DNA of 64,000 bases, taken from Pelagomonas calceolata (Eukaryota; Sar; Pelagophyceae; Pelagomonadales; Pelagomonadaceae). Within the stretch, counting starts at the first letter, position 1. Every line of letters begins with the position of its first letter. The stretch is from positions 4,278,001-4,342,000 of the forward strand of contig CAKKNE010000005.1 of assembly GCA_918797485.1 (NCBI GenBank), read 5' to 3'. Of the stretch, positions 7,601 to 51,063 are shown in pieces. The position numbers and the translations under genes are program-made. Below the pieces are notes generated by a model that did no database searches, was not told the origin of the DNA, and was given only the letters and a program-made list of their open reading frames with translations.

Positions 7601-7624
7601 GCTAGTGTCTTACATGCCGCTAGC
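7601..7624 (+). promoter_or_regulatory. Copy 1 of the GCTAG hairpin promoter element
   Basis: Stem GCTAGTG, loop TCTTACATGC, stem CGCTAGC. It lies between the divergent starts at 7504 and 7833; in its orientation it ends 208 bp before the ABCC start codon. The stem pairs over 7 bp if one U-G pair is allowed in RNA. Confidence 0.7.
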
Positions 7625-7832
7625 TTTCATGAGGATTATTCTCGCAGGCGTGTTATCGTGAGTCCAGAGGACACACGGGAGAGCCACTGGTCCTGTTACT
7701 GACAGCAGGAAACAGCATACAGTGTGCAGCACAGGAGTGCGGTACCCAACGACCGAACGAGGACTGCGAGCGGCGGACTGCAGCGCTGACAGCACAGCAG
7801 AGAGCAGCAAGCCAGCGCGGGGGCGAGTAGCG

Positions 7833-10800
7833 ATGAGTAATCGTAGCAATGCGCTAGATGGCAAGCCAGCAGAGACAGCAGAGCACACAGCCTGGCCGGA
7901 ACGCGCGTCGAGCTGCTGGAGCCAGCTCACTTTTAGTTATGTCACGCCGCTCCTAAGGAAAGGTGCCCAAAAGACGCTCGACCCCGACGACCTCTGGCCG
8001 GCGTCTGACGAGGAGCGCGTGCGCACGCTGCGGGGCGGCGGCCGCGGCCTCCGTGCGAAACTCAGCGCGGCGTGCGGGGGGCTGATGCGGCGCGCGGGCT
8101 GCTGGCAGGCCGTCGTCTCCGCGGGCCAGCTCGTCCAACCTCTAGTCGTGCGCGCGTTGGTGCTTGCCGTCTCTGAGGACGGCGCGAGGGCCAAAAACGC
8201 CGCGCTGCGCGTGACGGGCTACATCGCGGCCCTCACGATCATCGTGGCCTTCGCGCAGCAGCGGCAGCTCCACCTCGCGACGCGGGCCGGGACGCGGCTG
8301 CGGGCCCTGGCCATCGCGGAGGTCTACGCCGCCGCGGTGCTGCGGAGACGGTCGGACGCGCCCGGCGACGTCGGGACGTTGGTCGGCGTCGACGCGACGA
8401 AGCTCATGGAGGCGTCGCTCGAGCTGCATTTGGTGTGGGCGGCGCCGCTGCAGATCGTCATTGTGTCCGTGTTGTTAGTTTTTTTTGTCGGCGGCGACGG
8501 CGCGGCGGTCGCGGCCGGCATCGTGTGCCTCGTGGCCGTGCTGCCGGTGGCCAAGTGTTTAGGACGGTGGATGATCGCGATCCGCAAACGGCGGATGCCG
8601 GTGACGGACGAGCGCGTCCGCGAGGTCGGCGAGGTGCTCGGAGGCGTCCGCGTGGCCAAGTACAACGGCTGGGAGGCGCTCTGGAGCGCGCGCTGGCGCG
8701 CGCTGCGGTCCATAGAATTGCACCACGTGCGCATGGAGATGTTCGTCTATGGCCTGTCGATGCTCCTCATGGTCACGTCGCCCGTCGTCGCGACGATCGC
8801 GCTCTTCACGACGCACATGACGTCGTCGTCGGATAATTACCTGACGCCGGCGAACGCGTTCACGGTGCTGGCGCTGATCGGGGCTTTGCGCTTCCCCATC
8901 AACAAGCTCGGGACGCTGCTGGGGCAGCTCGCGCAGGCCATCGAGAGCTTCCACCGCATCGAGCAGTTCGTCGGGATGAGTGACGAGGACGATGACGAGG
9001 AGTCGAAGCGCGACGACGACGTTCTCACGGGTGAGGCGCTGGTCGTCGAGCGCGGCGCGTTCCGTTATGCTGAAGGCGCCTTCGTCGCGTGTTCGAGCCG
9101 CCTGGACCTCGCGCTGCGGCCGGGCGAATTGTGTTGCGTCGTGGGCCCCGTCGGGAGCGGCAAGTCGACGCTGATCGACGGCATCCTGGGCGACGCGGCC
9201 GCGTTGGACGGCACGACGGTCCGCTATGATCGGGCGCGCGTCGCGCTGGCGGCGCAGCGGCCGCGCGTGCTGAACGCCTCGGTGCGCCGGAACGTCACCG
9301 CGTTCTCGTCCGAGGGCTTCGACCCGGGGCGCTACGAGCGGGCCCTGGCGGCCGCGCAGCTCGACCAGGACGTCGCGCAGCTGCCGGCCGGCGACTCCAC
9401 GGAGATCGGCGAGCGCGGCGTCACGCTGAGCGGCGGGCAGAAGGCGCGCTTGGCCCTGGCGCGCTGCGTCTACGCGGCGCCCAAGTTGTGTTTGTTGGAC
9501 GACCCGCTGTCCGCGTTGGACGCGTCGACGGGGAAGCGGTGCTTCGACGCGCTGCTGGGCGACCGGGGCGTTTTGAGAGATGCGGCCGTCGTCCTCGTGA
9601 CGCACGGCACGCACTACCTTAGAAGGGCGGACCGCATTATTGTACTGGATGTCGACGGCGGCGTGGCCTTTCAGGGCACGTGGCCCGAGGCCGAGCGCGC
9701 GGCCGCGACGCGGCCGGACGATTCTACAATAGCGCCGCTGGTCGCCGCGCGGGCGCGGGGCCTGTCGCAGGACGACGTCGTCGTGGAAGAAGAAGTTGTT
9801 GTTCCTACAACGAGACGGAAGAGCGACTCGGCCGACGCCGCGCTCATGACGGCCGAGGCCCGCGAGGCGGGCGTCGCCCGGGCGGGCACCTGGTGGGTCT
9901 GGGCACAGAGCGCCGGGGGCTGGTGGTTTTTGTTGGGGCAGGTCCTCACGCTGGCGTTGGATCGGGCTTGTTACGTGGCGACGGAGTGGTGGCTGGCGAA
10001 GTGGGCCGACGCTAGGAGACATCCGGTGGACGTATTTGGATTGGCGACGTTCCCGGCCCAGAACGAGGGGGGCTTGGCGGCGCGCTGGCGCTGGGCGCGC
10101 GTTTACCTGTCGCTGGGGGCGGCTTCTGTGGTTTTTTGTTTCCTACGGACGCAGTGGGGCTTCCAGGGCGGGGTGCGCGCCGCTCGGAAACTCTATGAGG
10201 GCGTCTCGGCGCGGACGCTGAATGCTCCGATGTCCTACTTCGACACGACGCCCCAGGGCCGCGTCGTGAGTCGCTTCACCTTCGACACCGAGCAGATCGA
10301 TGTTTTATTAACTCAGAGAGCCGTGATGTTCATGATCTCGGTGGGCTGGACCATCACGGGCGTGTGCGTCATGATGGCGCTGACGCGGGGCACTATCATC
10401 GTGGGTCTCGTGCCGGCGTTCGGCGTCTACTTTCGCATCCTCCAGTTCTACCGGTCGTCGGCCGTCGATCTACAGAGATTGGATGCTTTGTCGCGGAGTC
10501 CTTTGCAAGCTCTTGTGTCGGAGGGCGTGGACGTCGCGGCGACGCTGCGCGCGTTTGGGGTGGGCAAGGCGTTCGCCGATAGATTTGAGAGAGCGGTGGA
10601 CGGGAACACGTCGGCGTTGCTCGCGTGGACGGCGGCGCAGCGGTGGGTGTCCTTGCGCTATGATCTCTGTGCCGCCGTGATTGCGGTCGCGGGCGGTATT
10701 GCGGCTTCCTATAGGGAGGAGATCGGGATCTCGCCGGCCATGGTCGGTTTATTGATCACGTGGTGCTTCCACCAAGCGATCTCGTTCTACTTTTTGTGCC

Positions 10801-11681
10801 TCACATTTAGCGAGGCCGAGATGGCCCTCACGTCCGTGGAACGCGTCACCGAGGCCGTGCCGGCGGAAGACGACTCGGGGCACGCGGCCCCGCCCAAGGA
10901 GTGGCCGTCGCGGGGCGCGCTCGAGTTCCGCGACGTGCGCATGCGCTACCGACCCGGGCTGCCGCTCGCATTGGATGGGCTGTCGTTCTCCGTCGCCGCG
11001 GGGGCACGGTGCGGTGTTGTTGGAAGAACGGGCGCGGGCAAGTCGTCGCTCGCCGCTGCGCTGTTTCGGTTGACGCCCTTGAGCGGCGGCGCGGTGCTCG
11101 TCGACGGCGTCGACGTGAGCACGCTGCGCCCGCTCCGCGAGTGCCGGCGCCGGTGCGCCCAGATCATCCCCCAAGATCCCGTATTGTTCTCGGGAACGAT
11201 CAAGTCGTGCCTCGACCCCTTCGACCAGCGTTCTGAAGATGAGGTGCGGGAGGCGCTCGATTTGGTCCTGCCCGGCAGAGCGCCGCCCTTGGACGCGGAG
11301 GTGAGTGACGGCGGCGCCACCTACTCGATCGGCGAGCGCCAGCTCCTCGCCATGGCGCGCGCTCTGCTCGAACGCCCACGCGTTCTTGTTATGGATGAAG
11401 CTACCAGTTCGGTAGACGGCGACACGGACGCCCGCGTCCAAGCCATGCTCCGCGACCTGCCGCAACTCTCGTCTACTACGACGCTCACGGTCGCGCACCG
11501 GCTCCACACGATCATCGATTACGATCAAGTCGTCGTCTTGGACGCCGGAAAGTGCGTCGAGGCCGGCGCGCCGCGGGATCTGGTACAGCTGCCGAACGGG
11601 TGGTTCTCGGCGCTCGTCGATTCGACGTCGCCCGCGACCGCGGCGGCGTTGCGGCGGGCGGCGCTTGCCTCCTCGTCCTAG
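7833..11681 (+). CDS. ABC transporter, subfamily C (multidrug-resistance-associated type)
   Basis: 1282 residues with no intron. The start MSNRSNALDG is preferred over the in-frame codon at 7722, because an ABCC-type N-terminus (WSQLTFSYVTPLLRKG) follows closely. Order: TMD1 (about 75-330); NBD1 with Walker A GPVGSGKST (about 436), signature LSGGQKARLALAR and Walker B LCLLDDPLSALD; TMD2 (about 690-1000); NBD2 with Walker A GRTGAGKSS (about 1064), signature-like YSIGERQ, Walker B VLVMDEATSSVD and H-loop TVAHR. NBD1 has Asp in place of the catalytic Glu, the usual ABCC asymmetry. The NBD2 signature differs slightly from the common SVGQRQ. Expected role is export of organic anions or conjugates across the vacuolar or plasma membrane; the substrate cannot be told. 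Confidence 0.95.
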   Translation: MSNRSNALDGKPAETAEHTAWPERASSCWSQLTFSYVTPLLRKGAQKTLDPDDLWPASDEERVRTLRGGGRGLRAKLSAACGGLMRRAGCWQAVVSAGQLVQPLVVRALVLAVSEDGARAKNAALRVTGYIAALTIIVAFAQQRQLHLATRAGTRLRALAIAEVYAAAVLRRRSDAPGDVGTLVGVDATKLMEASLELHLVWAAPLQIVIVSVLLVFFVGGDGAAVAAGIVCLVAVLPVAKCLGRWMIAIRKRRMPVTDERVREVGEVLGGVRVAKYNGWEALWSARWRALRSIELHHVRMEMFVYGLSMLLMVTSPVVATIALFTTHMTSSSDNYLTPANAFTVLALIGALRFPINKLGTLLGQLAQAIESFHRIEQFVGMSDEDDDEESKRDDDVLTGEALVVERGAFRYAEGAFVACSSRLDLALRPGELCCVVGPVGSGKSTLIDGILGDAAALDGTTVRYDRARVALAAQRPRVLNASVRRNVTAFSSEGFDPGRYERALAAAQLDQDVAQLPAGDSTEIGERGVTLSGGQKARLALARCVYAAPKLCLLDDPLSALDASTGKRCFDALLGDRGVLRDAAVVLVTHGTHYLRRADRIIVLDVDGGVAFQGTWPEAERAAATRPDDSTIAPLVAARARGLSQDDVVVEEEVVVPTTRRKSDSADAALMTAEAREAGVARAGTWWVWAQSAGGWWFLLGQVLTLALDRACYVATEWWLAKWADARRHPVDVFGLATFPAQNEGGLAARWRWARVYLSLGAASVVFCFLRTQWGFQGGVRAARKLYEGVSARTLNAPMSYFDTTPQGRVVSRFTFDTEQIDVLLTQRAVMFMISVGWTITGVCVMMALTRGTIIVGLVPAFGVYFRILQFYRSSAVDLQRLDALSRSPLQALVSEGVDVAATLRAFGVGKAFADRFERAVDGNTSALLAWTAAQRWVSLRYDLCAAVIAVAGGIAASYREEIGISPAMVGLLITWCFHQAISFYFLCLTFSEAEMALTSVERVTEAVPAEDDSGHAAPPKEWPSRGALEFRDVRMRYRPGLPLALDGLSFSVAAGARCGVVGRTGAGKSSLAAALFRLTPLSGGAVLVDGVDVSTLRPLRECRRRCAQIIPQDPVLFSGTIKSCLDPFDQRSEDEVREALDLVLPGRAPPLDAEVSDGGATYSIGERQLLAMARALLERPRVLVMDEATSSVDGDTDARVQAMLRDLPQLSSTTTLTVAHRLHTIIDYDQVVVLDAGKCVEAGAPRDLVQLPNGWFSALVDSTSPATAAALRRAALASSS

Positions 11682-11719
11682 TTGGTTGTTGTTCTAAACT
11701 CTTGGATGTTGTCTTATCT

Positions 11720-12934
11720 TTATGAGCCACCTAAGGGGTCGCGTGTGTACGCAATGTGTGCGCGCGTGCGCTCGGGCGACCCCTCCCCGGCGGCGACCGC
11801 CTCCTCCCAGAAACCGAGATCGAGCTGCATCACCCCAAAGATACTTTGTGCCATTTGGTCACTGGAATCCCAGCGCTCTGCAATCTTGCAAATATTTCTT
11901 AGCGTTGTTATGGCTTTGCACTGGTCGGCTGTGGTCCCGTCGTCGTCAAAAAAGAGAACTTTTGCGTACTGGTAGCGTAGCTCGAGCGTGAGTGTGGCGT
12001 CAGGTCCAACCAAGCGAATCGCCTCGCGGATCCGTGGGATCAGAAGCTTCTTCGCCTCGGGGTATTTAGATTGCTTGATTAGTGCTTCGGCTAGGTCGAG
12101 GGCCGCCGCAAGCTCGCCCTCACAGTATGATGGATTATCACGGCTTCGATCCAAAAGTGCGGCATGCACGGAATGGTACATCTCGAGCGATTCCTCAGTC
12201 CGACCAAGTCGTTCGCAGCTAACCGCAATAGAGCGTCGAGCTATCCCAATCATACAAAATTGATCATTGTCCGGCCCTGCGACGCGCTGGCGAACAGCTA
12301 TTTCGGCCTCATAAACCGCAATTGCGGCTTCATACATATCTATGTAATGCATGGCGTCCCCAAGTTTGTTCATCGCATTCATCCGAAACTCATCCCCTTC
12401 CGGCCGCCCCAAGTACGTCTTCCAGCACGCCCATCCGAGCGCGAGACGTACGTGACTTTTGAGAAACGCTCCGCACAGACTACATTCAGACCACCGATCC
12501 CACGCGTCGTCCATCTCCGGGACGTCCGCCAAAGAACCATAGAGCCGTTCTACGTCGTCCCCTTTAATCTCCGCCGTCCTGACGAGGCACGACATGTGCG
12601 CGAAGCCCGCCGGGCCGACGCAATTACACCCCCCGTGCACGAGGCCCTCCGACGTCGCCGTGTCGCAGATGTAGCAGGTGAAGCCCCGGGTCGCCGGGAG
12701 GTAGTCGTCCGCGGTCGCCGCGACCGCGGCCGCGACGGCCTCCTTGTATTTTTTGTCGGCGTGGTATTTTTCTGCGTTGCCGCCGCGGTGTATTTTCTTG
12801 CAGATCTGCTTGTGGCCGCGGCGCCAGTGGTCATGCTGGCAAGTTTGATTGCAGTATCTCGTGTGGCATCTAATACAACGCGGCGCGTCGAGGGACAGAG
12901 GGGCGGCGCAGGCGGCGCAAGTTGTGAGGATCAT
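11720..12934 (-). CDS. MYND zinc finger + RING-variant + TPR protein
   Basis: 404 residues from MILTTCAACA; the start at 12934 is chosen because the MYND finger follows at once. Residues 6-45 form a MYND finger (CAAC, RCIRCHTRYC, HDHWRRGHKQIC). Residues 80-150 match a RING-CH/RINGv pattern (CYIC, GGCNC, GFAHMSCL, CSLC). The rest is kinesin-light-chain-like TPR repeats (AIAVYEAEIAVRQRV, LEMYHSVHAALLDR). RINGv domains are often E3 ligases, MYND fingers bind proline-rich peptides, and TPRs bind partners. An adaptor or ligase is plausible but unproven. Three related genes or fragments lie in this window (17.5, 52.2 and 52.6 kb), so the family is multi-copy. Its 3' end faces the ABCC gene. Confidence 0.88.
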   Translation of the reverse strand: MILTTCAACAAPLSLDAPRCIRCHTRYCNQTCQHDHWRRGHKQICKKIHRGGNAEKYHADKKYKEAVAAAVAATADDYLPATRGFTCYICDTATSEGLVHGGCNCVGPAGFAHMSCLVRTAEIKGDDVERLYGSLADVPEMDDAWDRWSECSLCGAFLKSHVRLALGWACWKTYLGRPEGDEFRMNAMNKLGDAMHYIDMYEAAIAVYEAEIAVRQRVAGPDNDQFCMIGIARRSIAVSCERLGRTEESLEMYHSVHAALLDRSRDNPSYCEGELAAALDLAEALIKQSKYPEAKKLLIPRIREAIRLVGPDATLTLELRYQYAKVLFFDDDGTTADQCKAITTLRNICKIAERWDSSDQMAQSIFGVMQLDLGFWEEAVAAGEGSPERTRAHIAYTRDPLGGS

Positions 12935-12986
12935 TTTTGATTGGTTCAGTCGCGTAGGTGTGTTGTTTTGGCGAATTTTGATGATT

Positions 12987-13010
12987 GCTAGTGTCTTACT
13001 GGACGCTAGC
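12987..13010 (+). promoter_or_regulatory. Copy 2 of the GCTAG hairpin promoter element
   Basis: Stem GCTAGTG, loop TCTTACTGGA, stem CGCTAGC. It lies between the divergent starts at 12934 and 13137, ending 126 bp before the glycosyltransferase start in its own orientation. Confidence 0.7.
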
Positions 13011-13136: not shown

Positions 13137-14306
13137 ATGCCCGCAGGAGCAATGCGAGCAGCGCTGGCCCTGCTGCCGCTACTGCACGCCGCCGAAGCCG
13201 AGGGCATGACGCGCCACATACTCCCAAACTATCGGAGAACGCACCCGCCGGGCTACTGGCGCGTCGTCGCGCAGGAGCTGCGCAATTACTGCGAGTGCCG
13301 CTGCCACGAGAACCAACGCGAGTCCGACGCGAAGAGTGTAGGGCTCAACCCCTTGCTATTTGAAGAAGGGAGCTGCAAGGTCAACCGCCAGGCGTTATTA
13401 GCACATGCGAAGCGGCCGGAGCGTTTGACCGTCGTGGTCATGGCCTACATACCCGAGCAGAACGAGAGGCTCGACGCTCTAGTTTGCGGCTACGCCGACG
13501 CCGACATGGTCCAGAAGGTGCTAGTGCTGTGGAACGGTCTGCCCGAGCACCGTCCGATAATAAGCTGCGCGACGAACTGGCGGTCGAAACAACAAGGGTT
13601 TTATCGGGGCATCCTCAACCCGACGACCGAAGTCGAAGTGATCGTCGAGCCGACGAACACGTTGTTGAATAGATATAGACACGCTAAAAGAGTACCAACA
13701 CAAAGCGTAGTCCTGCAGGACGACGACGTCTTCCACCACGCCGAAACTTTAGATGCTTTTGCGTGGGGCCGCATGGCGGCGCCGGACCAAATTTTGGGCA
13801 CGTACCCCGAGCGCAACTTTCGCTTAGATGCTGCGACGGGCGAGTACGAGTACGTCTTCCACCCGCGCAAGACGGCCTCGAAGCAGTATTCTTTTTTACT
13901 GGGACAGACGTCCGTGGTCAGGCGAGATACCATCGACGGCTTCATACACACCGCGCCGCGCCAGGCCCTGGCGTTTATCATTTCTCATAAACCGACGTGC
14001 GAGGACCTGACCTTCCACTTTTATAATGGAAACGCCACGGGCCTGCCGCCGATCGTTTTTGAAGATCTCGCGCCCGTGCTGGTGCTGGGCGAGCGCAACG
14101 ACCAGATGCACAAACAAAATAAAAAGCTTTGGAACGCGCGGCGCCAGCGGTGCTTAAATAGGCTCGCGGAGGAGTTCGGCGGCATGGCGCTGGTCCGGTC
14201 GAAGTGCCGGCTTCGGGGCAACGTGACGCGTCTCTTGGAGCGCGAGGCGGATGGGGAGCGGTTGTGGAAGTACCGGGACAGGGCCGTCGCGGCGGCTTCT
14301 TTGTAG
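13137..14306 (+). CDS. GT64-type (exostosin-like) glycosyltransferase
   Basis: 389 residues. An N-terminal hydrophobic stretch (MRAALALLPLLHAAEAEG) acts as signal peptide or anchor; a start at the second Met (13152) is equally possible. Residues 96-330 resemble the GT64 domain of exostosin/EXTL proteins: TVVVMAYIPEQNERL, KVLVLWNGLP, a metal-binding triplet in VVLQDDDVF (about 194), GTYPERNFR, YSFLLGQTSVVRRD and the late CEDLTFHFYN. The family transfers GlcNAc or GalNAc in the Golgi/ER lumen onto glycans. The natural acceptor in an alga is unknown. It is divergent from the MYND gene and has a hairpin promoter element upstream. Confidence 0.85.
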   Translation: MPAGAMRAALALLPLLHAAEAEGMTRHILPNYRRTHPPGYWRVVAQELRNYCECRCHENQRESDAKSVGLNPLLFEEGSCKVNRQALLAHAKRPERLTVVVMAYIPEQNERLDALVCGYADADMVQKVLVLWNGLPEHRPIISCATNWRSKQQGFYRGILNPTTEVEVIVEPTNTLLNRYRHAKRVPTQSVVLQDDDVFHHAETLDAFAWGRMAAPDQILGTYPERNFRLDAATGEYEYVFHPRKTASKQYSFLLGQTSVVRRDTIDGFIHTAPRQALAFIISHKPTCEDLTFHFYNGNATGLPPIVFEDLAPVLVLGERNDQMHKQNKKLWNARRQRCLNRLAEEFGGMALVRSKCRLRGNVTRLLEREADGERLWKYRDRAVAAASL

Positions 14307-14352
14307 TTGTATGTAATTAACTTTGTTAGAAGTGAACACAACAATACACTTA

Positions 14353-15904: not shown

Positions 15905-15927
15905 GCTAGCGGCGTTGACACACTAGG
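15905..15927 (-). promoter_or_regulatory. Copy 3 of the GCTAG hairpin promoter element (diverged loop)
   Basis: Read on the minus strand it gives CCTAGTG, loop TGTCAACGC, then CGCTAGC. It sits between the divergent starts at 15702 and 16064 and, in its own orientation, 202 bp before the amino-acid transporter start. The loop is the most diverged of the eight. Confidence 0.55.
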
Positions 15928-19380: not shown

Positions 19381-19405
19381 GCTAGTGTCTCACAGGCCCG
19401 CTAGC
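19381..19405 (+). promoter_or_regulatory. Copy 4 of the GCTAG hairpin promoter element
   Basis: Stem GCTAGTG, loop TCTCACAGGCC, stem CGCTAGC. It ends 131 bp before the PGS1-like start at 19537. The upstream neighbour is gene-free DNA, so only the + strand gene can be its target. Confidence 0.7.
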
Positions 19406-26399: not shown

Positions 26400-26422
26400 G
26401 CTAGTGTCTTACAGGCCGCTAG
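26400..26422 (+). promoter_or_regulatory. Copy 5 of the GCTAG hairpin promoter element
   Basis: GCTAGTG, loop TCTTACAGGC, CGCTAG-A. It lies between two genes on the same strand and ends 199 bp before the Zn2Cys6 factor start at 26622. It is therefore tied to a 5' end, although it is also close to the MFS stop. Confidence 0.7.
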
Positions 26423-26621
26423 ATAACATGCTCTGCGCCGTAAAAAAGCTAGCCTAGATTGACAGTCTGGCCCTCATCTTCACCATTTAGATCCTCAAAG
26501 GCCGATCTGTGCAGCGGAGGCGACATCTCGCAGCGCCTCGCAGCCGAAACTCTAATCTGGGCCACTGCATCTTCAAGGAGCTTTCGACAGAGAAACAACC
26601 AGCGGCGCGAAGTCACAGATC

Positions 26622-38363: not shown

Positions 38364-38385
38364 GCTAGTATCTTACACCGCTAGC
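38364..38385 (+). promoter_or_regulatory. Copy 6 of the GCTAG hairpin promoter element (short loop)
   Basis: GCTAGTA, loop TCTTACAC, CGCTAGC-type stem. It lies between two + strand genes and ends 192 bp before the ROD-like start codon. Confidence 0.65.
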
Positions 38386-41500: not shown

Positions 41501-44500
41501 CGGACCGGACGTTCGGCGAAAAGGAGCCCTCGGAACAAAGCGTGGCGAAGATTGAGAAACTTGCCGACTTGTTGGGGGCGCCGCCGGGCTGGACTTCTTG
41601 CCGAGTGGCTCTACAGGCTGCTGTTGATGACACTCGAGTTGCTGAAAGTCTCAAGCAGGCCGACGCGGCCGCATCCAAATGGCGAAGTGACCCGGACGCG
41701 CTGCGGGATGTGGCGGAAAAACTAGCCACAAATTTAGCTGCGGTGGACTTGAACTCCAACGCGGGCGACGCTAGAAGGGCGGCGGCGTATCGACTCCGAG
41801 CGAGATGTGCCGCGGAAGCGGCAGATAGTTCGAAGGACTGCGCGGCCATGGAGGTTTTGCGATTTGTGGATGCGGTGCGGTCGCGGTGCGCGGGCGCGCC
41901 GGCGTTGATATCGAGTGGCGGAAATGATGATGGGTTACTCCTCAAGGCCGACGAGGCGAACCTACCTCTGAGGAAGTTCGTGCTTTGTCTAAGGGAGGCC
42001 CACGCTTCTGCAACAAGTGAGAGTATCGCGGTGAAAGTGGACGAGGCCACGGATTCACTCGTAAGTGTGTTCCGGAAAGCCGCGGCGTGGAGACTGGCCG
42101 CGCGGGCGTTAACTTTGAGGGACGCCGCCGTCGCCAAGCATCGAACGAACGACGAGCCCGGCGCGAAAAGGAGAGGACACGTCGCCCTTGGAAGACTAAA
42201 AGCTTTACTGGACGCGGCCGAGCCAGACGCGGAGCTCTGCGTGGCCTGTGCGCTCGCGGCCCCGCCGAAGAAGGCTTTTGATGCGTATCGAAGTGCGGTC
42301 GGGACGTGCGGCGGCTCGGCGGCGGAGCTCGATCGTTTAGCTTTGTTGGCCACGGTGGGGGAGGCCGTCGCCGCGAGACTCGATGACGGCGCTTTGGAAC
42401 ATGCCTCTCGATCACTCGCCCACGACGCGGTCTGGTGGCGCTTCTTGAAGAGAAGAGGCGTGGCCTTCGACCACGCTCGATTATGTTTGCAGGCTTCCGC
42501 CACTACTGTGGATGTCAGAGATATCCTTAGACGTTCAGCAAGTCATGCTACGGAGCTCTTACCGGCGGTCCTGGACGCGCCGGACCCCGACGATCTTATG
42601 AAGTTGCAGGAGGAAGGCGATTGTAGGAGACCCGTGTCCTGCTCATTAATCAGGCAGGTCCTCGAGTTCTGCGGTCGGTTTGGCGTCGAGGACGACGTCG
42701 CCGGTGCCGCGATCGCTACGAGGGTCTTAGCACGAGGCGTAAGCGGAGACGGCGAGTCGTTGAGTGACGCGGCGCGCGACGCGCTCGATCTCGTGCGAGA
42801 TCCTGAAAGAAGAATTCGGGTCTTACGAGCTGCCCTCGCGACGGCCGACGCCACGGCCTACGATCGACTGGATCTGATCTTGAGGATGCTCGTCGAGGAG
42901 AAGGAAGAGGACGAACCGAGAGTCGCTCTGTCTCCCGTCGACGAGAACACATCCAACCAAGTGGCCAAGGTCTCGGACGCCGAGAAGCGAAGGGCGGCGC
43001 TGTTACGAGCGTGCGTCATCGACGCGCAGAGAGCTGCGCGAGCGGCGGGCGGGTCGGTGGAAGCTCGAGATGATAGAGCCTTCGCGGCGCCGTCGGAAGC
43101 TACTCTCAAAAAGTGGATCCGCTGCGTCGCCTGGCTGCGGCAGGTGCGCGACGACGCGGCGACGCATTTAGGCGCGGCGGGCGCGAGAGCGCTGGGAGCG
43201 CGGAAGCTGCCCTTCCACGAGCTCGTGGTAAGGCCCCTGGAGACTTTAGCTCCGCTCCTCTCGGAGCAGTCGGCGCCGTTTCTGGCGCGCATCTCGCAGG
43301 TCGTGGATAACTTGCCGAAGGGCGCGGAATGGATCGCGTGTGCGGATTTGGTGGCTGAGGACGGCGTGCCCCGGCCCCGGTCAAGGGCGGAGGTCGACTT
43401 CTACCGGAGGCTCGACAAGTGCCCGAACGCGCGGTTGGCCTACAAGCGAGCCGACGCCTTGGCCGACGCCTTCGCCGAGCGATTACAGGCGGCACCGACC
43501 GATAGGGACGGCCTCGGCCACCTCAAGGCGGCGCGCGAGGCGGCGAAGTACGCGTCGCGCTGGGCCGACCGGGAGAACACGCCCGCAGCCCTGGACGCGC
43601 GCGCCGCGGCCGTCAAGCGCGCGGACGCCGCGGCGCGACGAGCCGCTGCGGTCCTGTTCGGCGGCGGATCGATACAAGACGACGACGTTTCAAGATCGGG
43701 TTCCGCGGGATTACTGAGAAGATTGTACGCGCGGGCCGCGGACGCCGCGGCGGACCAAGCACTAGCGACGCGCGGCGCGACGGACGCCTTCGGCCAGGCG
43801 GCGGCGAGAGCGCATCGCGCCGCGGCGGCCGTCGCCGCGCGGGAGAACGACCCCGGTAGTGCGGAGGTCGCGCGGCGCGAGCTCGCGAGGCGGTGGTTGT
43901 TTGATGATGACGACGGCACCGACGATTTATCAGGAGACGACGCTTTGTCTCCGTCACCGTTGGAGAAGAGAGATAGGGCGCTGGCGCGCGCCGCCGTCAA
44001 GGTCGCGTTCGTGTTGAGCGCGCGGGACGGCGTCACGTTGAGCGGCGGCGACCCGATCCAGGCGGCCCTCCAAAAGGCGTTAGATGGCGACTCGGCGGCG
44101 GACGTCGTGCCTCGGTCCGACGAACGGGGTGCGGTCGAGCTGTTAGTGGAACTCGCGGCGGCGACGGGCGGCCCGGGCGACGAGGCCGACCACCAGGACG
44201 CCGACGAGGTCGACGCGCCCTGGCTGGATTCTGATGATGACGACCAGGGCTCGGAAGTGCTGGCTAGAAGGGCGGAGACGGGCGAGCGGCGGCGGTTGAC
44301 GGCGCGGGCGCGCCTGCGCGCGTTGCGGGCGGCCGCGGTGCTCGCGCGCGGCGACCGGAGGCGGCTGGAAGATGCGTGGCGGAATGCGGCAAAGGCCGAG
44401 GACGCGCCTCCCACATTACTGGCGTTGAGTCGGCGGCTGCGCGTCGTGGCCGAGCTGTCGGCGGCGCGCCTGCCGCACGCTAGAGTGGTCGCCAAGCACG

Positions 44501-45153
44501 GCGTGGCCTGCGGCGTCGGCGCGGCGCGCTTCGTCGAGACGTTGCTGCGGGACCGCGGCGGCGACGCGAGGCTGGCGCCCACTTTATTGCCGTTGCTGTG
44601 CGCCGTCCTGCTCGAGGCCGACGACGACGAGGCCGTCGAGGAGTCGTCGTCGAGCAGGGACGCGCGCCTCGACGCGGCGGACGCGGCGCGGGCGCCGCTC
44701 TGGGCGGCGTTGTTCGACGCGCTGGCGGCGCACGAACAGTGGCGTCCTTTATTAGCGACGGCGGCGCGGTTGGCGCCGCGACCGTGGTTCCGGTCGTTCC
44801 GGGCCCGGCTCTGCGACGGCGCCGTCAAGCGGGCGCTCGCGGCGCCCTGCGCCGCGCTGGCGCAGCGCGCCGTGGCGCGGCGGCGCGCGCGGGCCGCGGC
44901 GTCGTGGGACGAGGATCAAGGTGATCAGGCCGTCGACGACTCGGACGCGCGCGCGGTCCTCGACGACGTCGCGAGCGTCGCGCGGGCGCGGCCGAGCGCC
45001 GTCGACGCGGCCCTGCTGGCCTCGATCCGCGACGCGTTACGAACGTTCCACCCCGCTGCTCTGGCGGCGTTCGACGGCACGGACGCGGCGCCGGCGGCGC
45101 GGTCGTCGAGCTTCGGGGGGCGGCGCATTTCCCTCGGTCCCTCTCCTGAATAA
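38578..45153 (+). CDS. ROD/KNTC1-like kinetochore protein
   Basis: 2191 residues in one uninterrupted 6.6-kb ORF. Residues 1-320 look like a seven-bladed beta-propeller (HRVAFLTTKGLVDTV, FAVGAADGSCAVVKARLCAV, WLFVAAGRALRWWDART). The remainder is an extended alpha-solenoid. Residues 450-560 resemble the ROD region after the propeller (GHASVAAVLWRELRFDDGD, VDAPVATYVSWVFGEVAPSL, LARLAAWAATRARALEADG-like). ROD pairs with Zwilch and ZW10 in the RZZ complex that recruits Mad1-Mad2 and dynein to kinetochores. The assignment rests on architecture and this mid-region; Sec39/NBAS, a related ER-tether protein, is the main alternative. Composition is strongly Ala/Asp/Arg-biased, which weakens motif reading. 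Confidence 0.6.
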   Translation: MAQQYDEQIQHVAEGERILCAVDGCTIVQTADGAVALTGEARIALGPATHAACCWRDVPRACAVALTDDQADQGSPRHRVAFLTTKGLVDTVECGPSVAPFSHVVGAAFRAGDGALGVLYGDGALRVALLGLDGGRVVEEAACVSTAAAGGTALAVVGDRFAVGAADGSCAVVKARLCAVLGQAAIARDLDLPASEAGEPVTALAATDRWLFVAAGRALRWWDARTGAPVSAFRAPAPLRSLAVVVAAPDAAGTTWVLAACADDGATATLRYDRRSGMACAAAPAGGCAGVATAKDGFVAFGATAVCRLTARKVVTQTRPLTPPSKPLEDHGDALEATLRNVVDGKSAEPLSSIFAAAPSDTIQKAATAVIAAPYASSTQARSALDAAIEGLIEETDDEQKVNAERLLQTTQRRLDVFARVLDAAARCGSTLDDGAWPRAWARFRDGDAGAHAKEACERGHASVAAVLWRELRFDDGDARTRGAAARSRADARAVKCVEGLPVDAPVATYVSWVFGEVAPSLAGGALGRLAAWAATRARALEADGRLDDALLIAREAHDSIGDRCGAGAVACGNDGDAWLADSEAADAQKDIAELRSALERVAALRDAHGVDAQLGEYEACDKASLARRLLDRVEAVNDVASHVEEHVRPVCREHDVDADDILTAYISARAEKHTQLRNSRRRRRDEAASENDDLAFAVAALDEVDDDAKRTSAALTILTAARAPFSDGVIALAHRSDLLDSDASVDEKRRPLADAARLVRLAHLAHRHRVRGFDAGDAAHARFLLRRIASGAWRLRRMAPRDALRDATTLARAYPATLSRRDAVVAFARGATRPEFYDDESQATAVNEAADAAVGVARRALRDACAAGAERRSARREVVAYCLRVLDGGDDGAQLKRRELAACAQLGAGVAADLADDVGGSRKDDDSSLRDADAKARKCLDIVDACQRSLDVWDCTSFDLRDDASALKLLQRVADRTFGEKEPSEQSVAKIEKLADLLGAPPGWTSCRVALQAAVDDTRVAESLKQADAAASKWRSDPDALRDVAEKLATNLAAVDLNSNAGDARRAAAYRLRARCAAEAADSSKDCAAMEVLRFVDAVRSRCAGAPALISSGGNDDGLLLKADEANLPLRKFVLCLREAHASATSESIAVKVDEATDSLVSVFRKAAAWRLAARALTLRDAAVAKHRTNDEPGAKRRGHVALGRLKALLDAAEPDAELCVACALAAPPKKAFDAYRSAVGTCGGSAAELDRLALLATVGEAVAARLDDGALEHASRSLAHDAVWWRFLKRRGVAFDHARLCLQASATTVDVRDILRRSASHATELLPAVLDAPDPDDLMKLQEEGDCRRPVSCSLIRQVLEFCGRFGVEDDVAGAAIATRVLARGVSGDGESLSDAARDALDLVRDPERRIRVLRAALATADATAYDRLDLILRMLVEEKEEDEPRVALSPVDENTSNQVAKVSDAEKRRAALLRACVIDAQRAARAAGGSVEARDDRAFAAPSEATLKKWIRCVAWLRQVRDDAATHLGAAGARALGARKLPFHELVVRPLETLAPLLSEQSAPFLARISQVVDNLPKGAEWIACADLVAEDGVPRPRSRAEVDFYRRLDKCPNARLAYKRADALADAFAERLQAAPTDRDGLGHLKAAREAAKYASRWADRENTPAALDARAAAVKRADAAARRAAAVLFGGGSIQDDDVSRSGSAGLLRRLYARAADAAADQALATRGATDAFGQAAARAHRAAAAVAARENDPGSAEVARRELARRWLFDDDDGTDDLSGDDALSPSPLEKRDRALARAAVKVAFVLSARDGVTLSGGDPIQAALQKALDGDSAADVVPRSDERGAVELLVELAAATGGPGDEADHQDADEVDAPWLDSDDDDQGSEVLARRAETGERRRLTARARLRALRAAAVLARGDRRRLEDAWRNAAKAEDAPPTLLALSRRLRVVAELSAARLPHARVVAKHGVACGVGAARFVETLLRDRGGDARLAPTLLPLLCAVLLEADDDEAVEESSSSRDARLDAADAARAPLWAALFDALAAHEQWRPLLATAARLAPRPWFRSFRARLCDGAVKRALAAPCAALAQRAVARRRARAAASWDEDQGDQAVDDSDARAVLDDVASVARARPSAVDAALLASIRDALRTFHPAALAAFDGTDAAPAARSSSFGGRRISLGPSPE

Positions 45154-45255: not shown

Positions 45256-46317
45256 TCACGGCGCCACGCACATGAAGCGAGCCCCGGATGTCGTGTCGCA
45301 CTTGGTGCACGAATTGTCGCCGCCGAGCCACGAGCACTCCGAATCCTTGCCAGAAGGGCAGGCCTTGTTGCAGGCGCCAGACGGCGGCGGCGACGGCGCG
45401 TCGCCGATCTGCCACTGCTGCGTCTTATCTCCTTCCTTGCCCTTGCACTTCTCCATTGTGAGCTTGCCCTCGTGGTCGGTCAGGCACATGTCTCCGTTGT
45501 TTGCGTTATCGTACACCCTAATCGTAGTCCCGTCGTAGTACAAATTGCCCTCGTTTGACTCGAGGTACTTGCAATCCCAGAGGATCATGTCACACCCGGT
45601 CTTCGGGTTACACCATTGAAGGCTGGCGGAAAGGCACCGGTTGGCGCTGTTCGTCTTATCAATGATATCGTGGTCATAGACGATCCTTCCCTCCCCGTTG
45701 ACCTTTTCGCTGCCAGTCTCGTAGCTGTACGTGAACTGCTGGAGCGAAAGCCGGTGGCCGGCGCCGTCACCGCCTCCGCATTTGTCTACTATGAGCGTGT
45801 CATGAATACGGAAATCCGCCGCGGGGGAGAACGTCACGCACTTGGTCGGGTCCGACTTAAGCCGGATCTGCGCGTCCTTGATCGTGAGGCTCGGCGTGTT
45901 CGGCGGCGCGACCGGCCGCGTACCGCGGTCGCACTCCATCGAGGGGTTCTTGCCCCAGTTCTGACACACGCCGCACTCGTTGAACTCCGGCCACCTCGTG
46001 GCGCAGTCCGCGTCGGTGGTGCACTTCCGCTCGCAAGCGTAAGTTTCGATGCCGTCATCGGGAAAGTCGTCGTCGTCCCAAAAGTAGGGGTGCGGCCCTT
46101 CGTCGTCCACCTCGGTCGTCTCGTGCTTGTGCTTGCTGTGTAGGTTCGACGCGTGGCGCGGCCCGGGAGAGGTCCGCACCGCCGTCGCGGCGAGGACGCC
46201 GATGACAAATGAGACTAGAGCGGCGCCGACGACGACGCGCCTGATGCCTATGGTCTTGGGCTTGCGAAGGAGCGTCGCGCCCTCCTCGTCGACAGGGATG
46301 GTTTCTTCGAGAGTCAT
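45256..46317 (-). CDS. Type II membrane protein with ricin-B-like lectin domain (copy 1)
   Basis: 353 residues from MTLEETIPVD; a further in-frame ATG at 46377 is less likely. Residues 26-50 form the membrane helix (GIRRVVVGAALVSFVIGVLAAT). Residues 88-130 hold a Cys-rich module (CERKCTTDADC). Residues 140-320 form a beta-trefoil with QxW-type signs (LQQFTYSYE, LSASLQWCNPKTGC, GDKTQQWQIGD). A final Cys module follows (CPSGKDSECSW, CTKCDT). Beta-trefoils of this type bind sugars at secreted or cell-surface sites. A paralogue lies at 47851-48738, sharing the C-terminal module and 3' flank. It converges with the ROD-like gene. Confidence 0.8.
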   Translation of the reverse strand: MTLEETIPVDEEGATLLRKPKTIGIRRVVVGAALVSFVIGVLAATAVRTSPGPRHASNLHSKHKHETTEVDDEGPHPYFWDDDDFPDDGIETYACERKCTTDADCATRWPEFNECGVCQNWGKNPSMECDRGTRPVAPPNTPSLTIKDAQIRLKSDPTKCVTFSPAADFRIHDTLIVDKCGGGDGAGHRLSLQQFTYSYETGSEKVNGEGRIVYDHDIIDKTNSANRCLSASLQWCNPKTGCDMILWDCKYLESNEGNLYYDGTTIRVYDNANNGDMCLTDHEGKLTMEKCKGKEGDKTQQWQIGDAPSPPPSGACNKACPSGKDSECSWLGGDNSCTKCDTTSGARFMCVAP

Positions 46318-46507
46318 GTTATCTCGGCTTATTTGCACTGTTACTGGGCACGACGAGGGTTTTAGGGGCTCTCTCACTCGCCGCTCCTGGGTTGCTGAAT
46401 AAGCTCAGAGCGCTCCGCAGAATCCATCTGTGCGCCCGCCGCCGATGAATCGGTGTCTATGTACAGATCCAAACCGGCCTTTGAGACCTCTAAAAACCGT
46501 GGCGTGA

Positions 46508-46530
46508 GCTAGCGGCCTGTAAGACACTAG
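46508..46530 (-). promoter_or_regulatory. Copy 7 of the GCTAG hairpin promoter element
   Basis: On the minus strand it reads CTAGTG, loop TCTTACAGGC, CGCTAGC, identical in loop to copy 5. It lies between divergent starts at 46317 and 46696 and, in its orientation, 190 bp before the lectin start. Confidence 0.7.
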
Positions 46531-46695
46531 GCAACCAAAAAATTTAATATTAGCTGAGAGAAACACAGTAGATGCGCGTGCCACATCTTGACCAAAAATC
46601 CAAGTTGGGCTGCTTCGCGCTCGCCAGATCAGCGGCGTCGTGCGATCGGCTGCCCTCGGGATCGGCTGCCTCCAGACAATCCCGTCCTCGATGAG

Positions 46696-47742
46696 ATGCT
46701 GCGCCGCGCTCTGGTGAGTCTGGTCGCTGCCGCGGTCGTGGGCTCGGACGCGGCCGCCGCTCCATCATCATGCATAACCAACACGACGAATGCGACGGCG
46801 GACGAGAGGGTCTATGCGCTGAGCCGCAAGTTCCAATGCCCGGACGTCGACGACGTGCCCATGGCCTGCGCCTGGACGACGGCGTGGCAGCGGCGGGTGT
46901 TCCATCTCCACATGTCGAAAATGGCCGGACGGGAGGTGCTCGCGCGCGCGCCGGCGGCCATTGACGTCCAAAAGTGCCCAGGCGAAGTTCCCGGCAGCCT
47001 CGCGACGTTTAGGGGCCACGTCCGGCCGCCGGTCGCGCCGTGTTTCTATAGCTATGAGACGACGTGGGATAATGCTGTCGCGGCCTATGCGAGCAGACCG
47101 CCGCCGCTCGTCGTGACAATGATCCGCGAACCCATAGCGTGGGCGTTCTCGAAGATCACGCACAAGAAGAATCGGCGCGTCGAACCCATGGTCGCGCAAG
47201 GCTGCATCGAAGCGCCGTCGCCATCGATTGAGTGCGCAAAGATCAATTTTGCTCGCTTCGCGCTCGAACACCTGGGCTCGCCGCTAGGGCCAGAATGCGA
47301 CGCGGTGGCCCAGGCGGCGCTAGCGCGTCAGCGACTCGATGCTTCGGTCGTCGGCCTCGTGGAGGATCTGGACGCGTCGCTGTGCCTCTGGGAGTACCAG
47401 TTCGGCCACCACCGCGCCAACGCGACGGACTACGCCCGGCGCTGCGACTGCCGCGGCGATGTGCGACGGGCTGCGGCGGCGGCGAGCGCGGCGGCGCTCC
47501 GGGGCAACGCTCACGTGGTGGGCATCACCGGAGGTCCGAAACACGCGGGAAAATACGAAGAACAAGTCTCGTTGCGCGCGGTCCTGCGCATCGAGGCCGC
47601 GCTCCGGCCCCACGCGCGGCTCTACGACTACGCGGCGGGCCTCTTCCGGCGGCGCGCCGATGTTGTCGCGCGCACGACGGGCGTGCGGCTCCTATGCGAC
47701 GACGACGCGCCGACGGGTTATTCCGGTGCCAAGCCAGCATAA
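46696..47742 (+). CDS. Golgi-type sulfotransferase
   Basis: 348 residues from MLRRALVSLV, with a signal anchor at residues 4-20. FHLHMSKMAGREVL matches the 5'-phosphosulfate loop region (fH.pKtagt in the family), although the usual Lys-Thr pair reads KMAG. LVVTMIREPIAWAFSKITHKK matches the 3'-phosphate-binding segment with Arg-Glu-Pro. A C-terminal basic helix follows (RIEAALRPHARLYDYAAGLFRRR). Such enzymes use PAPS to sulfate glycans or proteins. The degenerate first loop leaves activity uncertain. It lies between two lectin paralogues on the opposite strand. Confidence 0.75.
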   Translation: MLRRALVSLVAAAVVGSDAAAAPSSCITNTTNATADERVYALSRKFQCPDVDDVPMACAWTTAWQRRVFHLHMSKMAGREVLARAPAAIDVQKCPGEVPGSLATFRGHVRPPVAPCFYSYETTWDNAVAAYASRPPPLVVTMIREPIAWAFSKITHKKNRRVEPMVAQGCIEAPSPSIECAKINFARFALEHLGSPLGPECDAVAQAALARQRLDASVVGLVEDLDASLCLWEYQFGHHRANATDYARRCDCRGDVRRAAAAASAAALRGNAHVVGITGGPKHAGKYEEQVSLRAVLRIEAALRPHARLYDYAAGLFRRRADVVARTTGVRLLCDDDAPTGYSGAKPA

Positions 47743-47850
47743 GATACGAACGTCATGTTAGGCAGCGCGGGCGGGGGCGAGGGATCATCGCCTAAGGGGA
47801 GACCCGCTCTTCTTGGGCGCGGGCGGCGGGCGCTGCGTTCTTTCGCGGTC

Positions 47851-48738: not shown

Positions 48739-48936
48739 AATGAATGGATGGCCTGTGTTGAAAAGGCTTATTTATTGCTCTATGCAGGTGAACGACAAGG
48801 TTTCAGGCGCGCTGTCGTTTCGGCGCAGTGGTAGGCACGAGACTTAGTTGAATTGTATAGAGATTGCGTCGCTACAAAGCTTCAAAGTCGTGCTCTGAGT
48901 GACAAAAACCCGTACTAAAGGGAGGGGTATCGGCGA

Positions 48937-50876
48937 CTAGGTATAGATCTTAGCCGGCTTCTGCGACCGAAAACTACCAGAAGAACCGAGCCGCCGCCGC
49001 GCCGACGAGTACTCGGGCAGCGCCTCGTCCAAAGCGTCGTCGAGCGCGGACCCCGATCTTTGGAGAGGACGCGGCGCCTCGCCGTCGTCGCGGGCCCGCC
49101 ACCGGTCGCCATCATCCGGCCGCCTTCTAGGAGGCGTCCGCACTCTTAAATCTTGGTCGAACTTCGCCGGCACAAAAGCCGCGGATAGAGCGTCCCCGAA
49201 AGCCGCGGCCTCCTCTCTGAGTTTTGAGACGCGCTCCGTGATGGCCTTCGCTACTTTCCCAATCTTCCTTATATGATTCCGCTCGAACTCGTCGTCGACC
49301 CTCAAACGCCTTCTACCACTGGTCAGAATGTCGAAGTCGCCTGGAACTTTTTTGTCGTCGAAGGAGTCGCGGAGAGGCGGCGCGCCGATGGCGTCGGACC
49401 GTCGAGGCCTTCTCACACGTTCCGTGTCTCTTTGGAACCAGCCCCTGGACGTGTCCTTGCCACCCAGCGCGTACAACGCAACTAACCCAGCCTGGCCCAG
49501 GAAGAAACACGTCGCTTCGCCGATCTCGAAGATTTCTCGTCGGTAGGGGTCCTCGGCCATGTGCGCGACGAATATTACGATAGGTGTGGCCAGCAACCAC
49601 ATCGCGCCTAAGACTCTAAGTACCCTACAAAAAGCCTGCTTCTGGGGGAAATGTTTTATGGTATCCGTCACGGCCTTGAGGAACCAGGCGCACGCTACTA
49701 ATCGTAGAACGGCTAAAAAGATACCTGTCGAACCGGCATAGGCGAATTGTACTTCGACGTCGTTTCTGACGCGTTGCGACCAGGCCAGGCCTGTGTGGAA
49801 ATCAACCAGTGAGTTAGGTTCCGACGCGGCCACGGGGCCAACGTCGCGTCGATGGCGGGGGGCGCCCGAATCTGATTTCCACACAGGGCCAGACACGCGA
49901 AGGATGCCATGGCGTACGTCGCCGCAAAGGCCGCGAGCTTCATGCGCGACGCGACGCGTAACTTGTGGCGTACGATCGTCCAGCCCTTGCCCAGTAACAC
50001 GAGGAGTATGACAATTTCCACATCGGCGACGCCGTGGCAGACTCGCGACAACGTGTCCAACCACAAGGGCGCCTGGCCCTTGCCCTGGTACCTCAAGTAG
50101 AAGCACATCCTCAGGAGTAGGGCGACCCACTCGAAGGCCACGGCCTCGGTCAAAACTCTAGTTGTTAAATGGAGTTTTTTCCCGCCCGCCTCCAACCTTA
50201 CGCGTACTCGATAAGCTGCCACTAAACAAAGTGTTTGCAGACAGAAGAGTAGGATGGACGTAACGGGCAGTGCATCTTCATCGGCAGAAAATTCCTTGCC
50301 CCACTCGTTCCCGTTCCACAGGTGGAATTCGTATTCGATCTCCGTCGGACCCATGCACCTATTCTTATACTCCAAGTCACACGAGATTAATTGCGCCTGC
50401 TGGGCGATTGACAAACTACCGTTCTGAAAGTCGGAAGAGCACTTCTCGTTGCACCTCGTGTTGTAGTTGCTCCACACTAAGTAGACAAATCTGGGGCTTC
50501 TTGAAATCAAGTACGACTTCTTGGTGGACGTCGTCTCCTGCCCGTCGACCATGAGGAAGTCGTAGGCGACCGTGGCTTTGGCATACCTCTCTTCGAGACT
50601 GAGCTCGGTGAAAGTTTTATTGGCGATCGAAGGAAAGGCGTTGGCCCCCTCTTCAAAGTACATCAAGAGTGAACCGCCCCGATGCTTGACCTTCAGCTCG
50701 AAGTTCGCGTGGAGCTCGAGGACTGGAGGATCACCTGTTTTCTCCTCTTGATCATCAGGCGTTGCGGAGAAGCAGAAGCGTTCCAGGTAGGTCCAGCTCG
50801 TCGGTTTCGAGACGGTCTTCTTCGTCTTCATGGCTTTGATGGTGGGGAGGAGGAGGAGGAGGCGGCGCGCCATCAT
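48937..50876 (-). CDS. GPR180/TMEM145-like seven-transmembrane protein, two exons
   Basis: Exons 50876-49883 and 49790-48937 give 615 residues. The N-terminus has a basic hydrophobic leader. Residues 30-205 are a luminal beta-rich domain (LELHANFELKVKHRGGSLLMYF, EYEFHLWNG). Residues 215-430 contain seven helices, with the intimal-thickness-receptor hallmark VALLLRMCFYLRYQ, then HGVADVEIVILLVLLGKGWTIV. The C-terminal 190 residues are a basic cytosolic tail (RKIGKVAKAITERVSKLREEA). The family is linked to secretory-pathway signalling or sorting in animals and occurs widely in protists; ligand unknown. The introner junction lies between helices 4 and 5 and leaves four extra residues. Confidence 0.82.
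49791..49886 (-). mobile_element. Introner in the GPR180-like gene
   Basis: A 96-bp element with perfect 14-bp inverted ends, CTGTGTGGAAATCA and TGATTTCCACACAG, and an 8-bp duplication GTCTGGCC/GCCTGGCC with one mismatch. The intron is 49791-49882 (GTGGAAATCAG...CCACACAG), phase 1. It shares with the MFS copy the segments ATTCGGGCGCCCC, GCCATCGACGCGACG and AACCTAACTCACTGGTTGATT. It is effectively a shortened copy of that 202-bp element. Confidence 0.9.
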
Positions 50877-51041
50877 GGGCTGCCCCCAACAGCTTCTGAC
50901 CTACGAGGAGAACCGGCGACGCGGAACGGCGCGCCGCGTATCACCCAGGACGGGCAGCTGTTGCGTCTCGTCTCGTAGCCACGAACCGGGCAGCCCTTGC
51001 GGTGCAATGCAAGCCGTTGGGCGCACGCGCCGGGGCCAGTT

Positions 51042-51063
51042 GCTAGCGGTGTAAGACACTAGC
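51042..51063 (-). promoter_or_regulatory. Copy 8 of the GCTAG hairpin promoter element (short loop)
   Basis: On the minus strand it reads GCTAGTG, loop TCTTACAC, CGCTAGC. It lies between divergent starts at 50876 and 51109 and is 165 bp before the GPR180-like start. Confidence 0.65.

Follow-up and report, generated by a model that had tools for sequence, protein, structure and literature searches.

What is the function of a short sequence that recurs eight times in 64,000 nucleotides of an algal genome, each time upstream of a gene? The stretch, referred to here as the window, is C5:4278001-4342000 of Pelagomonas calceolata, a minute and abundant marine alga whose assembly comprises 32,445,274 bases in 8 contigs, the six largest measuring 3.9-6.3 Mb each and the other two 90,574 and 39,373 bases. 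The published account of the genome lists 32.4 Mb of nuclear sequence in six contigs, together with a plastid contig of 90 kb and a mitochondrial one of 39 kb, and reports 16,667 genes with 0.45 introns per gene (PMC9481584). The recurring element consists of two inverted arms, each with a CTAG core, on either side of a loop. A previous interpretation (the sequence-only reading) took it for a hairpin positioned at gene starts that acts either as DNA, in a bidirectional promoter, or as RNA, in the 5' leader. I conclude that the element is probably, though far from certainly, a long bipartite site in duplex DNA, recognized by its sequence and putatively bound by protein, that organizes promoters working in one or two directions.

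All eight copies were found at the positions and on the strands first given for them, and their lengths were again measured as 22-25 nt. A scan of the window for the 13-letter left arm, allowing at most two mismatches, returned 8 places, as compared to 2.37 expected from shuffled sequences. Seven of these are copies already named, and the eighth (35117) is absent from a scan that uses both arms. The copy at 15905(-), with four mismatches in its left arm, was missed by the one-arm scan and recovered by the two-arm scan. The word CGCTAG is itself rarer in the window than in shuffles (32 vs 46.6), though eight of the 32 belong to elements, and CTAG words outside the elements may be avoided in the window.

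Over the whole genome, the strict pattern GCTAGTGTCTTAC-N(1-8)-CGCTAGC occurs 1,293 times (634 + 659), and its letter-reversed control not once. Relaxing the outermost letter adds 463 matches on the left, 216 on the right and 78 on both sides, for a total of 2,050 (the doubly variant matches counted with gaps of 1-6, the other three classes with gaps of 1-8). One 24-mer, with AGGC as its gap, is present in 235 identical copies. Duplicated chromosome ends (PMC9481584) enter into these totals, and a number of copies are therefore counted twice; C1:301227 and C5:301191 are one such pair. A gapped weight matrix applied to the contiguous 164 kb around the window found 22 copies with a score of at least 15, 24 with at least 12 and 27 with at least 6, while the same sequence reversed gave none even at a score of at least 6. 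The 22 copies imply roughly 4,300 per genome, an extrapolation from a single sample.

To describe the anatomy and placement of the element, 58 copies were collected. A poor match (L017) and a copy at the end of a locus (L006:3002) were left out of the table of flanks, leaving 56, and the second copy in one promoter (L038:738) was also left out of the distance counts, leaving 55. Of these, 28 are strict matches, 22 belong to the unbiased 164 kb and 5 were taken at chromosome ends. The strict matches are those of L001-L008 and L037-L056, the latter being 20 picked by hand from 100 listed of the 235 identical 24-mers. The promoter with two copies is divergent, and its pair is in tandem (L038:701-761, or G000:C1:575887-575947, where G000 is the P. 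calceolata assembly), with starts 37 bp apart and the same orientation. Two of the identical 24-mers also lie close together, at G000:C2:5954927 and 5955056.

The core common to the 56 copies is GCTAGTGTCTTAC, a gap, and CGCTAGC. The gap is four letters long in 39 of the 56 and otherwise ranges from 0 to 5. Weak conservation extends beyond the core, into TGCTT on its left side and TAA on its right, giving a consensus of about TGCTTG-CTAGTGTCTTAC-(variable gap, usually 4, mostly 2-5)-CGCTAGC-TAA and a conserved span of some 30 bp. Both CTAG cores are without variation in all 56 copies, 28 of which had been selected as strict matches, and the loop letters TCTTAC are conserved almost as strongly as the arms. 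Five of the copies whose core begins with C (L011:1064, L059:1239, L012:2198, L035:1948 and window 46508), two orthologous pairs among them, carry TGC-CTAG in place of TTG-CTAG, as if CTAG had gained one base in front of it; a further two that begin with C (window 15905 and L012:461) lack this form. The TGC-CTAG copies perhaps mark a second point at which altered spacing is tolerated. The information content of the unbiased 22 copies is 30.6 bits for the core and 36.0 with flanks, gap entropy subtracted, as compared to 13.9 bits needed to specify some 4,300 sites.

The placement of the element was judged against genes called as ATG-to-stop open reading frames (ORFs) supported by a codon-position GC score and taken as intron-free (85 ORFs of at least 120 amino acids, of which the 80 of at least 150 were used for counts). 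Called coding sequence makes up 79.9% of the 164 kb, and yet none of the 24 copies with scores of at least 12 begins inside a called gene, in accord with the earlier description of the copies as intergenic. Of the 26 intervals between divergent genes 14 hold a copy, as do 7 of the 24 between tandem genes (8 copies in those 7). The two remaining copies lie past the last called gene and in one of 25 intervals between convergent genes. The claim that no copy stands between convergent genes thus applies to the eight in the window and fails for a weak copy outside it (position 114879 of the 164 kb, score 12.8). An equal scatter over coding, 3' and intergenic DNA was not observed in this sample. Copies scoring at least 15 are found within about 350 bp upstream of 35 of the 80 genes.

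Position relative to the start codon is likewise regular. Measured from the end of the element to the ATG in its own orientation, the median distance is 185 bp (interquartile range (IQR) 151-199, n = 49), and in the other direction 194 bp (IQR 131-247, n = 36); the two spreads differ (Levene p = 0.03). The unbiased 22 copies give 192 (IQR 167-200, n = 21) and 176.5 (IQR 121-248, n = 14), respectively. Thirty of the 55 copies are situated between divergent starts, 19 upstream of a single gene and facing it, and 6 upstream of a single gene and facing away (p = 0.015); in the unbiased 22 the corresponding numbers are 13, 8 and 1. The notion of a positioned element at gene starts, common in divergent promoters, therefore holds, and in the element's own direction the distances peak near 185 bp. 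The accompanying rule that a copy upstream of one gene points toward it is borne out by the three such copies in the window and survives in the larger set only as a preference, 6 of 25 disobeying it.

This preference would be explained if the element were a directional core-promoter element, one that recruits the initiation machinery and, along its own orientation, dictates a transcription start a set distance away; in a divergent pair the second gene would then be served weakly or by another element. In keeping with this idea, 63% of own-direction distances fall within 150-220 bp, as compared to 33% in the other direction, and 8 of 9 one-gene copies in the unbiased set face their gene. The copies that face away speak against it, as do three strong copies in a related contig (L012, considered below) that face away from the plus-strand gene following them, unless divergent genes have been missed there, and one orthologous copy that is inverted. 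Moreover, no convincing initiator was found at a fixed offset from the element. The words that do recur at fixed offsets are TTTT at about +15, GGGG at +22, TTC at +61 and AAAA at +129 (p about 1e-7 to 1e-6, vs 6e-5 in a rotated control), and the TTC region does not look like an initiator by eye. A search of the 164 kb for other long promoter words turned up mainly short simple or GC-rich words. I consider a directional core-promoter element unlikely, with a chance still large enough to be taken seriously.

Does the element fold? If its arms paired, changes in one arm should be matched by changes in the other, and at the outermost pair they are not. Pair 1 is G-C in the 1,293 strict matches, and the 78 matches changed on both sides (463 being changed on the left and 216 on the right) are what independent variation predicts (77.3). 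Of the 78, 27 form Watson-Crick pairs, as compared to 31.1 expected from the letters in the columns (independence test p = 0.64). Pair 6 is T opposite G. Its 19 left variants comprise 17 with A, which breaks the pair, and 2 with C, which perfects it; its 27 right variants comprise 13 with T, 11 with A (pair-perfecting) and 3 with C. There are no double variants of pair 6, about 0.4 being expected, so their absence is uninformative. At pair 7 the sole two double variants are both A-T and so keep the pairing, the number being very small. Pairs 1, 6 and 7 are those covered by the double-variant tests; the CTAG pairs are silent on pairing because they are invariant in the 56 copies, half of which were chosen as strict matches. 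Nor do the flanks lengthen the stem, the commonest first outer letters being T (40/56) opposite T (30/56). Since pairs 1 and 6 speak against pairing and pair 7 only weakly for it, I reject the hairpin proposed by the sequence-only reading.

Predicted folding energies bear on the two forms a hairpin might take. As DNA the element is predicted to fold at -3.6 kcal/mol, the same as shuffled sequences (z = -0.04). An extruded DNA hairpin or cruciform recognized by its shape could draw on that predicted fold and on the inverted CTAG arms of all 56 tabulated copies, but the fixed T opposite G would be a mismatch in DNA, one that is rarely repaired (C at left position 6 in 2 matches and A at right position 2 in 11, vs 1,293 unrepaired), and the loop is nearly as conserved as the arms. 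I find it barely credible. As RNA, the element strand folds as a stem at -10.4 kcal/mol (z = -1.2), and 23 of 200 shuffles do equally well; the complement gives z = -0.8. The whole window contains no match to Rfam at gathering scores, and five loci searched at E <= 1 gave 2 hits, both far under gathering. A reading of TCTTACAG as a splice site was also rejected, since the gap letters, including AG, are not conserved.

Whether the element could be part of a 5' leader was assessed from the frequency of ATG upstream of genes. Relative to letter permutations, ATG around the 80 genes occurs at ratios of 0.35, 0.53, 0.34 and 0.27 in the four bins up to 120 bp upstream, and of 0.63, 1.02, 0.57, 0.60 and 0.94 in the next bins outward. 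The pooled ratio of ATG to control words is 29:465 at 3-120 bp, as compared to 88:682 at 150-320 bp (Fisher p = 0.001; inclusion of the omitted 120-150 bin also gives p = 0.001). Taking the first in-frame ATG as the start exaggerates the depletion, so the test was repeated on out-of-frame ATGs alone, where the depletion is weaker (23:298 vs 62:458, p = 0.026). Directly downstream of the element the numbers of ATGs per 30 bp are 10, 9, 4, 5, 3 and 2, with a drop near +60 (of the upstream-ATG tables for element copies, the first two omit only L017 and the third omits none). If leaders are mostly shorter than about 130 bases, as the depletion suggests, then an element with a median distance of 185 is beyond them. 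The element is thus probably outside the 5' leader, an average inference of moderate strength.

Of the two modes of action first offered for the element, the data favor a DNA site in a bidirectional promoter and moderately disfavor a role in the RNA leader. A leader hairpin that governs translation or stability as RNA would profit from the predicted stem, from the position upstream of start codons, from the pairing kept in both double variants of pair 7 and from the only moderate force of the ATG argument when confined to out-of-frame ATGs. It has to contend with the lack of covariation at pair 1, the preference of pair 6 for the pair-breaking A, the shuffles that fold equally well, and the location of the element mostly farther out than the 120 bp most depleted of ATG. 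Besides, the 6 of 25 one-gene copies that face away would be transcribed in the opposite sense. Such a hairpin is very unlikely.

The element also exists outside P. calceolata. A collection of viral contigs contains no exact match to CTAGTGTCTTACN{1,6}CGCTAG, and a viral origin was rejected on that basis. Contigs filed as prokaryotic genomes contain eight matches to the core pattern, six of them in marine bins (L009-L014), the other two, in Halovenus (L015) and Palibaumannia (L016), being taken as chance. Two of the marine contigs (L011 and L012, assigned to a marine Spirochaeta bin) are algal sequence; the pieces that align to the P. calceolata genome do so at roughly 70-91%, and in L012 the gene order is the same as there over the 6 kb compared. 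A third (L010, CAJWEZ010000013.1, also filed under Spirochaeta) is partly algal: about 950 bp of it (L010:2043-2991), beside bacterial genes, are 96% identical to C1:2154808-2155754, so this contig is probably a chimeric assembly of P. calceolata itself.

In the sister lineage represented by L011 and L012, all four of the orthologous strong sites are occupied, on contigs that were found through their holding the pattern. At the first site (L012:2198 and L035:1948) the orientation is the same, with one letter inserted and two changed. At the second (L012:4290 and L057:2120), again in the same orientation, an unusual TTGC is common to both and one gap letter is changed. At the third (L011:1064 and L059:1239) orientation is also kept and one gap letter is changed, while the adjoining upstream DNA hardly aligns. 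At the fourth (L012:5352 and L057:786) the element is inverted relative to the gene; the two copies overlap in the MAFFT columns and precede the first ATG candidate by 148 and 168 bases, with flanks too diverged for BLAST alignment. The gap letters here, GAC and GGAC, are consistent with the element having inverted where it stood, or else with a loss and an independent gain. A weak fifth site (L012:461) has no counterpart that could be found in L036, and a weak sixth (L012:7635) is outside the compared stretch.

The same comparison revealed a dispersed, GC-rich repeat some 125-155 bp long, situated between gene ends and the next promoter (L012:299-455, L012:2050-2172 and L036:1482-1637). Scoring 40 of 181 candidates in the P. 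calceolata genome gave no fewer than 39 places, 77-91% identical. Of the two copies in L012, the first is shared with the orthologous place in P. calceolata and the second is missing from the orthologous spot near C6:2244520, so this repeat moves or is lost.

Could the element itself have moved? A MITE- or SINE-like repeat (miniature inverted-repeat transposable element or short interspersed element) with a longer unit was rejected: beyond about 5 bp the flanks share no homology (mean pairwise identity 0.256, maximum 0.41, over 120 bases, n = 55), and in none of the 55 copies do repeats of at least 3 bp abut the element, as target-site duplication would require. Words shared at the two borders are as frequent as in shuffles (3.2 vs 3.04 +/- 0.12). 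Another possibility is an ultra-short sequence, mobile or copied, which invaded promoters and has been retained there since. The surplus of information, the tightness of a family with few half-degenerate copies, the 235 identical 24-mers and the inversion or replacement at one orthologous promoter would all suit it. The unshared flanks, the absent duplications and the positioned placement would not, nor would the occupation of all four strong orthologous sites, with the same reservation as to how the sister contigs were found. I judge it improbable.

A different account of the inverted site supposes a module some 30 bp long, more exactly specified than its copy number demands and serving a large share of the alga's genes, that can flip in place between its inverted arms, so that orientation would change between lineages while site and spacing persist; the evidence for such a flip comes from one promoter. 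In yeast, a spacer flanked by short inverted repeats is known to invert, though only where the arms exceed 9 bp (PMC8604942). I offer this account as a rather doubtful one.

I return to the duplex-DNA site. A protein-bound site is favored because the element stays in place from one lineage to the other, is restricted in the sample to promoters and is spaced from start codons, and because its outer arms vary independently; its central position between divergent starts, in both orientations, fits a promoter-organizing factor that serves both sides, and its orientation bias and tighter own-direction spacing leave some room for a directional role in the core promoter. By this account the element would be located in the promoter, probably 50-60 bp upstream of the transcription start, and an abundant, putative nuclear factor would bind it, keep the promoter open and serve the gene on one or both sides. 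The inverted CTAG arms would then be two protein contacts rather than a nucleic-acid hairpin, and the mode of action might resemble that of the sites of general regulatory factors in yeast (Reb1, Abf1). The data themselves show the number of copies, their placement, the peak in distance, the missing covariation at the outermost pair and the occurrence at orthologous promoters; the factor, the open chromatin and the position of the start are what I infer.

Several points weigh against this account. With 30.6 bits (36.0 including flanks) as against the 13.9 that would be enough, the site has a surplus for which a single ordinary factor would have no need. The peak in own-direction distance and the 19:6 bias in orientation are not needed by a symmetric architectural site. 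The position assigned to the transcription start rests on ATG depletion around intron-free, ORF-called genes; that depletion is weaker out of frame, and the ATG ratio dips again at 180-260 bp (0.57 and 0.60, all frames). Finally, the pair-7 double variants, few as they are, keep their pairing.

The eight copies of the window illustrate the general placement, five lying between divergent genes and three upstream of a single gene, all three facing it. Their own-orientation distances to the ATG (in order 208, 126, 202, 131, 198, 192, 190 and 165 bases) agree with those first reported save for one that differs by 1. Copy 1 (7601..7624, plus strand) is between a gene for a CRAL/TRIO protein (5888-7474, minus) and one for an ABC transporter (7833-11681, plus), 208 bases before the ATG at 7833 and 126 before that at 7474. 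Copy 2 (12987..13010, plus) separates a TPR gene (11720-12934, minus) from a GT64 gene (13137-14306, plus), at 126 bases from ATG 13137 and 52 from ATG 12934. Copy 3 (15905..15927, minus), the most diverged of the eight, has an Aa_trans gene (14353-15702, minus) 202 bases from it at ATG 15702 and a plus-strand gene (16064-17470) 136 bases from it at ATG 16064. Each of the next three precedes one gene in the same orientation: copy 4 (19381..19405, plus) is 131 bases before ATG 19537 of a gene with a PLD-like domain (19537-20766, plus), copy 5 (26400..26423, plus) 198 before ATG 26622 of a gene with a Zn2Cys6 domain (26622-27851, plus), and copy 6 (38364..38385, plus) 192 before ATG 38578 of a gene encoding 2191 amino acids (38578-45153, plus). 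Copy 7 (46508..46531, minus) is between divergent genes at 45256-46317 (minus) and 46696-47742 (plus), 190 bases before ATG 46317 and 164 before ATG 46696, and copy 8 (51042..51063, minus) between genes at 49713-50876 (minus) and 51321-52199 (plus), 165 before ATG 50876 and 257 before ATG 51321. Pfam domains bear out five of the names first given to the target genes (ABC transporter, GT64, amino-acid carrier, PLD-like and Zn2Cys6); for the remaining three there was no such confirmation.

The vertebrate factors ZNF143 and CTCF are familiar for long asymmetric motifs that occur thousands of times, in some cases in divergent promoters or with internal spacing that varies; the Pelagomonas element differs from these in letters and lineage. 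The nearest functional likeness, drawn here from sequence alone, is to the yeast Reb1 and Abf1 sites, sequence-specific promoter sites that have been linked to nucleosome-depleted regions and promoter directionality (PMC9481977, PMC11069190, PMC12305957). The Abf1 site also has a spacer, CGTNNNNNRNGAB (PMC12305957). Unlike these, the Pelagomonas element spans about 30 bp, carries more than 30 bits, has a variable inner gap and is composed of unrelated letters. Among stramenopiles, the promoter motifs INR, FPR and DPEP of Phytophthora infestans show positional peaks in a minority of genes (PMC3599244). Their sequences (YCAYTYY, MWTTTNC and SAASMMS) are absent by inspection from both strands of the Pelagomonas consensus, and their matches are described as commonest within 50-100 nt of the start codon (PMC3599244), vs a median of 185 here. 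The Ribi and VCP2 divergent promoters have been put to use in another ochrophyte alga, Nannochloropsis (PMC5785352); they were found via co-expressed divergent gene pairs, and a comparable shared element was not seen in the portions of that account concerned with them. The early promoter motif of the pelagophyte virus AaV (Aureococcus virus), the octamer AAAAATGA (PMC5917014), is viral and AT-rich, with letters unrelated to those of the Pelagomonas element.

The sequence-only reading knew of no described element of this form, and the open-licence literature on Pelagomonas and on pelagophyte and stramenopile promoters shows none among the matches listed, supplements aside. The main text of the P. 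calceolata genome paper (PMC9481584) has no occurrence of motif, promoter, hairpin or palindrom, and the 13-letter string was met in one paper of the open-licence literature searched, on yeast diphthamide. An element upstream of 35 of 80 genes in one sample provides a direct handle on this alga, since it can be used to bait the factor, to guide annotation and to inform the design of promoters for transgenes. The disparity between the 30.6 bits it carries and the 13.9 it needs poses a further question: which second constraint keeps so long a site exact?

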